From assembly GCF_026151205.1 (NCBI RefSeq), contig NC_087074.1:10821226-10885225 (forward strand): a stretch of 64,000 nucleotides of DNA, written 5' to 3'. The number at the start of each line of letters is the position of its first letter. The first letter of the stretch is position 1. The stretch is from Bolinopsis microptera. Taxonomy: Eukaryota; Ctenophora; Tentaculata; Lobata; Bolinopsidae. Below the pieces are notes generated by a model that made no database searches, was not told the origin of the DNA, and saw nothing but the letters and a program-made list of their open reading frames with translations. The position numbers were made by a program, and so were the translations under genes. Shown here piece after piece: positions 30,052 to 36,000 of the stretch.

Positions 30052-33000
30052 ATGGGTGAATCAAATGGTTTGCTAAATGAATCAGAGGACTTAGAAAATC
30101 TTGTAAGTACTGAGGATGAACTTGAGGCTGAGCGGAAGAACATTACTCTTTGGAGAAGTCCTCTGAAAACATTTTACTATTTTGGCTGGCAGACGTTTGA
30201 TGAACTTTGTAAAGGTTTTAAGTTGTAAGTATTTAGTCTCGTGCCCCCCCCCCCCCCCCCCTCCGGATCTCGTGTGTTTTGTTTTTGTTGATTTTAAGTC
30301 CACACATTACACTAGTTACCCTTACCTCATACTATTAGAAGCTATCCAGACTGCATCTTTGCACAGTAGATAATAACCTTTTCTGCTATAAATACATTGA
30401 AATTACCCTATTTTTATGATAAGCCCCCTCACTCCTACAGTGCAAAGCTGCACAAGTTAAATATAGCGGTGACGGCTGGGGTGACTTTAGCAATCTTACT
30501 GTTCCTCAACATCCCTGGAGCTCAACAAAAGGTCAGTTGATCCAACATGTGCGATATTGAACAATACTGAGTACTATGATAATACTGAATATATTAAAGC
30601 TTTGTAATACGCACAGTCACTACTGCTGGTGTTTTACAAAATTTGTGTGATCTTGGGGGGGGGGGGGGGGAAGGGGGGATATATTGGAGACTATTATCTT
30701 ATGATATTAGGATGCAGTGAAACTATCGGACGACGGACTACGATGTATGCCAACCCTGACCCCATTGGAAAAATTAAAATATATCGACTCTGTTACATCG
30801 CTTTCTGTTAATATAAAACTCCGTAACAAACTGAATTGGGATATTATTTGTGGCCCATACCAACCTCAACTCCCTAAGTCGTAATCTCTGTCCCGAGACA
30901 TGTTTTTTTTTTCTTTACCGCTGATGTTGCCCTGGTATGGTTGGACAGATAATAAAAATGACTTTCAAATAAGATTCCCTGAAATGTGGTATTTGGTTAC
31001 CTATTTTCTAGTCTTCTGCAAACATTAGGGGTTGCAAAACAGCAACAATTGAATTAACAGTGGAATGTTACAGTACGTGGTGTGGTTAAACAAGGAGATC
31101 TGGTGGAGCGTCTGGTGGGTTGGGCTGGGGATACTCTCTACTGTAGGACTGGGAACTGGACTACATACCTTCATTCTCTACCTGGTAACTATATTATAGT
31201 ATTACATACCTTCATTCTCTACCTGGTAACTATATTATAGTATTACATACCTTCATTCTCTACCTGGTAAATGTATTATAGTATTACATACCTTCACTCT
31301 CTACCTGGTAACTATATTATAGTATTACATACCTTCATTCTCTACCTGGTAACTATATTATAGTAGTACATAGCTTCACGCTCTACCTGGTAACTATATT
31401 ATAATACTACATACCTTCATTCTCTACCTGGTAACTATATTATAGTATTACATACCTTCATTCTCCACCTGGTAACTATATTATAGTACTAGTGTAACCC
31501 GGCCTTCGGCCGGGATTTCACTGCCGCAGTTAAAAAGGGTAGGAGTAATTACCCGCTGAGTCAAAACCCGCATTAGGTGACCCAATTTCTTAAACAATAA
31601 TCTCATAATCAGTTATTTCTTGTGGATAATTAAGTCATTATTAGCCAGGCCATGAGGCACCACACTCCATGATCATAAGGTCTGAACACCGAGTATTACA
31701 CCTCATCACTCCCGTCTTTTTAAACCGCTTTCTATTTTTATTTAAATCGTTATAGAAATTAACTCTTGTATTGTTAACTCCGCACCACACCCGCATATTA
31801 TATTTGAAAACACGCATAACATTGTCGTATGAACTCTCTCTCTCTGCAGTCCAAACAGACCCCAAACGCTAACAGTCCTCCTCCCCTAATAAGCTTATGG
31901 TATTACATTACAGCGAATCTTCCCGGGCTAACGCAATTATGACGCTACTTAAATGCAGCTACATATTATACAGTAATGAGATATAGAGAGCAAGCCCCGT
32001 AACTCTTGCCATTCTGCTCAAGCCATTTTATGCAACATTTGTGGTACAAAACCGTCAATTAAACCACTTACCACCGGCCGATTTAAAAAACATTTGCTTA
32101 TGGGCTTCATCAGAGTTTTGTCGGCACTTTACCGAAAAAACCAGTCCCGTAACTCTTACCGTTTTTTTTTGTATAACCGTTCGGAAATTACACACAGACA
32201 GACAGATAGACAGACACACACACACACACACACACACACACACACACACACACACACATTCTGGTGTTATCAAGTTGATGTTATTAAGGTGATTACATAC
32301 CTTCATTCTCTACCTGGTAACTATATTATAGTAGTACATACCTTCATTCTCTACCTGGTAACTATATTATAGTATTACATACCTTCATTCTCTACCTGGT
32401 AACTATAATATAGTATTACATACCTTCATTCTCTACCTGGTAACTATATTATAGTATTACATACCTTCACTCTCTACCTGGTAACTATATTATAGTATTA
32501 CATACCTTCATTCTCTACCTGGTAAAGTTATATTATAGGACTACATACCTTCATTCTCTACCTGGTAACTATATTATAGGACTACATACCTTCATTCTCT
32601 ACCTGGTAACTATATTATAGGACTACATACCTTCATTCTCTACCTGGTAACTATATTATAGTATTACATACCTTCATTCTCTACCTGGTAACTATATTAT
32701 AGTATTATATACCTTCATTCTCTACCTGGTAACTATATTATAGTATTATATACCTTCATTCTCTACCTGGTAAAGTTATATTATAGTACTACATACCTTC
32801 ATTCTCCACCTGGTAACTATATTTAAATAGGACTACATACCTTCATTCTCTACCTGGTAACTATATTGTAGTAGTACATACCTTCATTCTCTACCTGGTA
32901 ACTATATTATAGTAGTACATACCTTCATTCTCTACCTGGTAACTATATTATAATACTACATACCTTCATTCTCTACCTGGTAACTATATTATAGTAGTAC

Positions 33001-36000
33001 ATACCTTCATTCAAATTCTAAATATTTTTTGGCGCTTCGCGCCAAAGCCTGAATTTCGAGGGTAAGGACAAAAGGAAATTGCAGCATTTGCGGTATCGCA
33101 ATTTTTCACGTTTGCCGCGATATTTTTGGCTCATAATGATCAGGGTAGCATGAAACATGAACAAAAGTAGTTTCCAGAAAAATTTTGACTTAGAAAATTT
33201 TCGGTCCAAGTCATTCTCGATACGTACTTCTGAAAGCAGATCTCTCGCTTCCGAGCTCGTATTGCGAAGGGGAGGCCTGCCTTCCGAGATCGCATTACAA
33301 AGGGGAACCCTCGAGTCCAAAATCGTATATCGAACTTCGAAAACCGAAAAAGATATTTTTGGCTCATAATGATCAGAGTAGCATGAAACACGAACAAAAG
33401 TAGTTTTCAAGAAAACTTTGAAAATTTTTGACTTACAAAATTTTTGACTGAAAAAAATGTTGACTTTAAAATTTTCGGGGGAAAAAAATTGTTCCCAAAA
33501 ATTTTTAGAAGCCTAAATTAAAAAGTTGGCCCTTTTTGGCCCCTTGCCCAGATTTCATGGGGGGGGGGGGGGGGGGGGGGGCGATGGCCCCCCCCCCTGC
33601 CCCCCCCGCTTCCTACACCCCTGAGTATTGCTATCTCCTCCGTGTATTGCAACTCTCTCTCTCTCTCCACCAGGGTCCACACATAGCCCAAGTAACCATG
33701 GCAGCATGGGAGTGTAAGAGTGTAGAGTTCCCAGAACCTCCTTATCCAGATGTTGTGATATGTCCACCAGAAGGAACCTCTCTCATGCACGTGGATATGT
33801 GGGTTATCATGTCCAAAGTTAGATGGGAATCACTCATGTGGGTAAGTCATTTAAGATGAAAATGTTATAATAAATAATTGTAATTTCCTTTTTAAATAAG
33901 TATTTATAGATTTACTAACCATGCATCCAAAAGGAAGGATCATGACGTTTGTAACAAGAGAGGATGTAATAAAAGAAGGAGACACAGTGATAGTGAGAAG
34001 AGAGGGTACTCTTGAACCTCTTGTGGTAAAGCGAGACGCTCAGTACCAACTTACAGCTGGACTATTCAGACACAACGACATCATGGGTAAACCTTTTGGT
34101 TGCAAGATGTATTCCCACAACAAGAAGAGCACTATAACCCTGCTTGCACCCAGCCCTGAGCTGTGGACCCTTTCTCTGCCTCACCGGACTCAAATCCTTT
34201 ACGCTAGTGATATCTCTCTGGTATGTCTAATGTTGGAGTTGTCTCCTGGCAGTGTGGTAGTGGAGAGTGGTACTGGTAGTGGCAGTTTAACTCACGCGCT
34301 AGCACGTGCTGTGGGGGAGTCAGGTCACGTGCACTCTCACGAGTTCCACAAGGAGCGGAGTGAGGTGGCTGCTGTGGAGTTTAAATCTCACGGTCTCGAC
34401 CAAATTGTTTCTAGTTACCATAAGAATGTTTGTGAGGACGGTTTTGCGGTGCAGGACGTTGCTGATGCTGTGTTTTTAGATCTGCCCTGTCCGTGGGATG
34501 CCATTAAACACACTATCTCTGTGTTTGGTCCTGACGGAGGGAGGATATGCAGCTTCTCACCTTGTATTGAGCAGGTTCAGAAGGCTTGCTCTGCTCTGTC
34601 AGAGGAAGGGTTCGAGGAAATTCAGACATTTGAGGGAATAGAACGACAGTACCAGCTGAGTCGGAAGAGAATTTGGGAGCCTTTTGTTGGAAACGAGCGA
34701 CACAAGAAGTTCCGCTCAGATCAGAGAAGTGGGGACAAAGCTTGTAATGGGTGGTTAAATGCGTATGTGAAGGGCGGACCAAAGAAAGATGGAGTAGGTC
34801 ACACTGGTTACTTAACTTTTGCTACTCTTCCAGCTAAAGATTTTGTTCAAAATATAGTTTTGGAAAGTAAAGAGGACGTTCAAATGGCCGAGACGGAGAA
34901 AAGTGAAAACAGTTAATTTTAATCCTCAAATTTTTATAACTTTCTAACCTGTTTTAATTTTTAATTTATTATTCATCAAATGATAGTGTATTTTAGCTGT
35001 ATTTTATCCACAGTCGGGGAATCATTGTTTTACTGCGTCTCCTATATATTATATCTAGGTTAAACAAGCCAGAAATTCTGAGAAATAACATAATATTTTT
35101 AAGCCCTACTTTATGATACCCATCAAATCCCGCATTCACGCTATTACCGAAAATATTTGACACCTGAATATAATATAGACCTGATATGTTTTTCGTGTGA
35201 TATTGATAACAGCTACATTCCATAACATTGTGTTCTTGAAGTAAAAGAGCGTGTTTCAGGGTATTGGTACAGCAATAGGAGAGTTACCACCCTACTTCAT
35301 GGCTAGAGCTGGTTAGTTTGATATTTCACTGTTTCCTGCCTTAGGAGTAGAATTATTGTTATAGGGTCCGAGACTTTCTTGATTTTACAAATCTGTATAG
35401 CTAGTCAGAAATTTTACTGTTAACAAAGTATTAATTTAAAGCCGTATTTTAAAGCCGTATAATATTGAAGCTGAAATACCAATTGTCTAGTACATTACTA
35501 TTACTTGTCTCACCGCTTCACGAATCAGCACATTACTCACAGCAAAATAACACAACCACACTTTTCAGCCAGGCTATCAGGTAACGAGATGCAAAATAAC
35601 ACAACCACACTTTTCAGCCAGGCTATCAGGTAACGAGATGGACGACAGCTCATATACCGACCTTCAGAGAGTAAAAGACCCTTCTACTCTCAAATGGGGA
35701 GATAGATTTAAACGGTGGATACAAAACTTTGTACAAAGTGCCGGCTTCATTGGTATTCTAATCTGCGCTAGCGTAAGTAGTAATGTGACACAATGTTTCG
35801 AAATAGTTCTGTTTACATTGTGTTATTGTAATATTCTACATTGTGTTGAGACTATATTCTTTGAACAATTGCACCCGCTCTATTGAATTTTAATGCGGCA
35901 ATGATCAAAGCCATCTCGCAGCTCACAACCATTAAAATAGGGTTACACTAAAAAGAGCAGATGTTGTGCAGGTACTCACTGTGTAGGACTTAGTATTTCC

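Follow-up and report, generated by a model that had tools for sequence, protein, structure and literature searches.

Intron 3 of the VMP1 gene of Bolinopsis microptera contains a tandem array in which the end of exon 3 and its splice donor recur many times, and the question raised by this locus is what such an array is: a device acting on VMP1 splicing, the product of a mutational process directed to splice sites, an artefact of assembly, or a duplication that the gene has tolerated. We analyzed the 64,000-nucleotide stretch of DNA holding the gene (the window, C3 10821226-10885225) and searched the genome (264.65 Mb in 232 contigs). Genome matches met across the searches were on C1 to C13, with coordinates in the Mb range, and otherwise on C35 at 22-23 kb.

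The coding exons of VMP1 (Table 1), joined using the first exon-3 donor, gave a CDS of 1185 nt that encodes 394 amino acids with no internal stop. The protein matched the VTT domain of Pfam with 26.6 bits (E 8.9e-6), which does not reach the cut-off of 33.9, and searches of NCBIfam and PDB with the protein gave nothing useful. Its assignment to VMP1 is otherwise based on VMP1 motifs.

Table 1. Features of the VMP1 locus. Positions are those of the window, except where C3 is given.
Feature	Position	Strand	Description
VMP1 gene	30052..38705	+	9 coding exons read from sequence, joined to an open CDS
VMP1 coding exons 1-3	30052-30224, 30441-30531, 31074-31184	+	sequence reading
VMP1 coding exons 4-6	33674-33841, 35260-35311, 35618-35772	+	sequence reading
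VMP1 coding exons 7-9	37518-37634, 38075-38239, 38553-38705	+	sequence reading
VMP1 exon 3 with authentic donor	31074..31184	+	CTG|GTAACT at 31185; sequence reading, in-frame join to exon 4
Array block 1	31162..31488	+	41-bp units; real donor and 7 decoy donors
Helitron-like insert, 804 bp	31489..32292	-	5' TC, 3' hairpin then CTAG, A/T target, no target duplication
Array block 2	32293..33012	+	17 decoy donors; closes with a partial unit at the dispersed repeat
Dispersed repeat with internal tandem repeats	33012..33549	+	genome matches
Exon 6 acceptor duplication	35542..35640	+	49 bp x2, 100% identical; second acceptor 49 nt upstream
Exon 8 acceptor array	37940..38093	+	50 bp x3.1 (35 intron and 15 exon bases)
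Exon 7 array, second copy	C3:10615115-10617435		2.3 kb, 22-bp unit, 89 CCAGGTACC

The array is built of head-to-tail units of 41 bp, within the range of ~10-100 bp that defines intronic minisatellites, each joining the 3' end of exon 3 to the initial 14 bases of the intron. TRF placed it at 31162-31488 (8.0 copies, 93% matches) and 32292-33012 (17.4 copies, 93%). The first-pass annotation had described about 25 tandem copies of the exon-3 donor junction, the first being the real exon end, and this was borne out: exon 3, as read here, terminates in unit 1, where the authentic donor permits an in-frame join to exon 4, and GGTAA donors occur 25 times between 31185 and 32980, i.e., the real one and 24 decoys. 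The decoys are intact, as had also been claimed, with GTAA in all 24, and their 9-mers equal the real donor in 21 cases, the others being CTG|GTAAAG (two) and CTG|GTAAAT (one). Copying of the exon end was likewise correct, but the length of 24 bases given for it was not, as 23 bases are exactly alike in most units and 27 are retained in four units of the window (32522, 32565, 32606, and 32813). The latter suggest that the original unit comprised 27 exon and 14 intron bases. At least 19 genome matches to the array were found, 19/19 within the window array or the second copy described below, on the same chromosome; judged from these matches, the array is locus-specific. Folding of the first units as RNA gave a z of -2.19, with 6/200 shuffles folding equally well or better; since the first two array donors are both paired in the predicted fold, we do not read it as protecting the real donor.

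The predictions made at first pass for the products of the decoys also agreed with our reading. The in-frame TAG expected four codons past the true donor is reached from any of the 24 decoys, at one common codon, after GTA ACT ATA TTA. An acceptor-like sequence had been noted in most units, and TATAG is indeed present in 20 of the 24 inter-donor gaps. Within 31170-33020, TATTATAG was counted 20 times; ATAG is followed by 19 intervals of 26 nt, and ATAA by two of 26 nt and one of 31 nt. When each of the 20 gaps was taken as a single included pseudo-exon, 19 gave the proposed 26 nt and one gave 330 nt, which includes part of the insert, with an early stop in all 20.

Two features were absent from that description: the array is divided in two blocks by an 804-bp insert, and its 3' end is joined to a dispersed repeat (~33012). 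Helitrons start with TC, end with a hairpin and CTRR, insert between A and T with no duplication of the target, and occur as dispersed copies. By this definition the insert is Helitron-like, considering its ends, its empty site (in silico excision leaves an exact unit of 41 bp), and its dispersal, with at least 83 matching pieces in the genome when 40 of 1465 first-look candidates were scored. Most of the full-length matches start at query position 1.

Part of the region occurs a second time at ~C3:10614-10657 kb, the VMP1 part being inverted relative to the window. This second copy may be a partial duplication, or it may belong to the other haplotype after rearrangement or misassembly. Its array has 17 donors (the real one and 16 decoys) and no insert; array length differs between the locus copies (24 vs. 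16 decoys), which may be either alleles or a duplication. In the second copy, the array passes into other intron sequence, with the dispersed repeat ~0.75 kb farther and other DNA between, so the window copy has probably lost the stretch between array end and repeat. Exons 1-7 showed 0 mismatches over 864 aligned bases, vs. ~95-99% identity, gaps counted, in the longer aligned blocks of the two region copies; exons 1-7 thus look constrained, or recently converted between copies, with the array differing. For exon 8, 111/165 bases align, and the search of the whole genome gave one full match and one partial match. BLAST of the second copy with 28001-41500 of the window did not reveal exon 9, nothing past 38186 being present among the matches listed, and the phosphoesterase gene left of VMP1 had no second match.

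The exon-3 donor is one of 4/16 VMP1 junctions with repeats in at least one of the two copies. The duplication at the exon 6 acceptor is present in both; in the second, its first unit contains an insertion. The exon 8 unit is single in the second copy, and its ends share ATCC (by eye), a sign of microhomology-type duplication. The exon 7 acceptor occurs once in the window, vs. ~97 copies of its 22-bp unit in the second copy, where the AG|GTACC acceptor is rebuilt ~90 times and the old acceptor stands at the far end. We also found, at C3:10725629-10727654, 43 copies of a 47-bp unit containing the acceptor and first bases of one exon of an MFS-type transporter gene. The repeat-bearing exon alone matched MFS_1 weakly (0.0071), and the exon pieces, joined by reading of the sequence in a gene whose structure is incomplete, matched at 1.3e-10, above the cut-off. 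The repeats spanning these three further VMP1 acceptors and the MFS acceptor are new here. A TCP-1 gene (L045), picked without knowledge of its repeats, has a 20-bp repeat that stops 3 bp before one acceptor and, at 3049-4876 of L045, 61 copies of a pyrimidine-rich 30-bp unit with CTAAC motifs, without any AG in 1.8 kb, stopping 19 bp before another. Intron gain from the exon-3 array was considered and rejected, the second copy's exon-3 array entering other intron sequence and the exon 7 array being present in one copy only.

The exon-3 array is in our judgement probably a tolerated junction duplication that grew as a minisatellite and is near-neutral, splicing taking place mostly at the first donor. 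A short tandem duplication would have arisen across the boundary of exon 3 and intron 3, and would have been tolerated because the exon-side donor still yields normal mRNA, the extra copies leaving with the intron; a duplication within the exon, unlike such a spliced-away copy, would usually be purged. Slippage or unequal exchange would have expanded the duplicate to 16-24 extra copies, with variable length, and one locus copy would then have received the Helitron-like insertion. The first donor would be used mostly, and a small leak to the next donor, likely but minor, would produce a truncated frame destined for decay. The complete 394-aa VMP1 obtained from the first donor, together with the early stop behind 24/24 decoys, supports this explanation, and the like duplications at the three other VMP1 acceptors and in the MFS gene are expected of a class of tolerated mutations. 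It is also favored by exons 1-7, which look constrained (or recently converted) beside a differing array, by the shared ATCC at exon 8, and by the low unit retention in ABCA7, described below. As the array is one of several splice-junction repeats in the gene and the genome, a general mutational or tolerance effect is indicated, not a VMP1-specific device. Against neutrality, GTAA is kept in 40/40 decoys of both copies, for ~2-3 changes expected by a rough hand estimate, with units that were found via the GTAA motif and no two-unit gap visible between them. Leakage could also be large rather than minor, since 21/24 decoys equal the real donor in sequence.

Plain neutrality does not explain the four junction events in VMP1, which exceed random placement in post hoc tests (P 0.0002 to 0.006). 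Under a rival explanation, biased mutation (e.g., via co-transcriptional splicing, R-loops, or repair) would make the splice sites of the genome hot spots at which tandem duplications arise. In addition to the VMP1 junctions, the MFS acceptor copies and the two TCP-1 arrays favor it. Of the window arrays in VMP1 with a period of at least 20, 3/4 span a junction (P 0.003 against random placement, post hoc); adding the repeat inside the mobile element, which was left out in the other two of three versions, gave 3/5 (P 0.006, post hoc), and adding the second copy's exon-7 array gave 4/5 (P 0.0002, post hoc). However, when VMP1 was pooled with two TCP-1 genes (TRF score of at least 50, period of at least 15), 3/9 arrays spanned a junction (P 0.13), and significance came at looser distances only, with 4/9 within 3 bp (P 0.042) and 5/9 within 20 bp (P 0.042), so that we do not take this test as proof of enrichment. 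It left out VMP1 repeats of period 13 or less, one repeat of period 11 close to an acceptor in TCP-1, repeats of period 16 with scores of 42 (L045) and 48 (L044), and the MFS gene because its structure is incomplete. The second TCP-1 gene (L044) had no repeat scoring 50 or more along 11 exon pieces. The MFS gene also has an array of 88 copies of a 19-bp unit apart from the exon pieces that were read, and a duplication of 43 bp whose position could not be assigned. An annotation-free scan for splice signals in 46 arrays gave 12 at P<0.1, with a combined P of 0.016 that counts the same arrays in both copies and a KS P of 0.07; being weak and of non-independent rows, it was not relied on. With post hoc values for VMP1, these pooled values, and a weak scan, enrichment of repeats at junctions is therefore suggestive, not proven, and hot spots are an unlikely explanation. 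A related reading, in which a process linked to splicing would seed the duplications and splice sites would repeatedly become donor or acceptor minisatellites, several at once in genes such as VMP1, appears to us likewise unlikely.

A poison device, suggested in the first-pass annotation, in which the decoys would compete for U1 or make pseudo-exon products and copy number would set VMP1 output, is quite doubtful. The 21/24 decoys with the real 9-mer and the truncation of every extended-exon product (24/24) and pseudo-exon product tested (20/20) would suit it. On the other side, pseudo-exons of 26 nt are below the usual exon size, and 15/23 TATAG sites (2 of the 23 inside the insert) scored -2.9 on the matrix used, a weak argument as true VMP1 acceptors include scores of -3.4 and -2.3. 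Elsewhere, intronic VNTRs of ABCA7 and TERT are reported to affect splicing (PMC5954066, PMC11830802), but in ABCA7 the retention of one unit via a decoy donor, 2 +/- 1% of transcripts, is independent of VNTR length (PMC5954066).

This ABCA7 repeat, in intron 18 of the human gene, is the closest precedent that we found. It is reported to have 23.7 units in the reference, the unit being 25 bp and starting at GT, with the first GT as the exon-18 donor, and skipping of the next exon increases with VNTR length (PMC5954066). As in VMP1, an intronic minisatellite has the authentic donor as its first GT, and use of the next donor would add one unit, out of frame; the length varies in ABCA7 and differs between the two locus copies of VMP1. 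Unlike the ABCA7 unit, the VMP1 unit of 41 bp also copies at least 23 exon bases, and ABCA7 has been studied with expression data (PMC5954066). By analogy with ABCA7, any effect of the array on VMP1 may consist in exon-4 skipping instead of decoy use.

That the array is an assembly artefact is highly improbable: the published Bolinopsis assembly, if it is the source, was gap-closed, haplotig-purged, and polished (PMC10232365), and part of the region is present twice on the chromosome, but the two copies differ in lengths, unit orders, insertions, and array ends, their units carry variants, some common to both, and the 287 kb read contain no run of N.

Other systems resemble the tolerated junction duplication in part. 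The intron-6 VNTR6-1 of human TERT is also an intronic minisatellite that affects splicing, with a 38-bp unit, but it lies ~3.5 kb from the affected exon, is tied to G-quadruplexes, and is not described as a splice-junction repeat in the accessible part of its report (PMC11830802). A tandem genomic duplication in the potato RdRp gene spans an intron-exon boundary and inherits splice signals like the VMP1 array; unlike it, the potato duplication made a new intron, and the part of the source available describes no array (PMC4974935). Titles and abstract openings of the ctenophore papers listed contained no report of splice-junction repeats. Two dozen donors behind the real one, mostly identical to it, constitute a natural experiment on site choice by the spliceosome where donor sequence cannot discriminate. 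If junction minisatellites are common in this lineage, they would point to a mutational process linked to splice sites, and new exons and introns as well as variation in splicing could arise from them.

Several minor observations were made on the same DNA. Three further arrays, at 51516-53153 and 60489-60708 in the window and at C3:10741164-10741588, contain splice-like motifs next to which an exon was not demonstrable, the last having no match in Pfam. The first is a 47-bp minisatellite of 35 copies, with GAG|GTGAGA on the minus strand; its counterpart in the second copy of the region has a 44-bp unit and ~101 copies. The start of an Ig-like exon carries a 70-bp duplication (C3:10758944), an ambiguous case with weak matches. 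VMP1 intron 4 harbors, in the orientation of the gene, a 338-aa ORF without introns (33900-34916, +), a tRNA methyltransferase subunit of the GCD14 type (PF08704, E 1.1e-82), and an ORF of equal length is present in the second copy of the locus. The 10-bp repeat ATTGCACTGT occurs in 51 copies at 39747-40260, ~1 kb beyond the VMP1 stop. Finally, VTT-domain matches with equal scores lie in opposite orientation, 63 kb apart, at C8:3912599 (+) and C8:3975530 (-), possibly another inverted duplicate or an unpurged haplotype.
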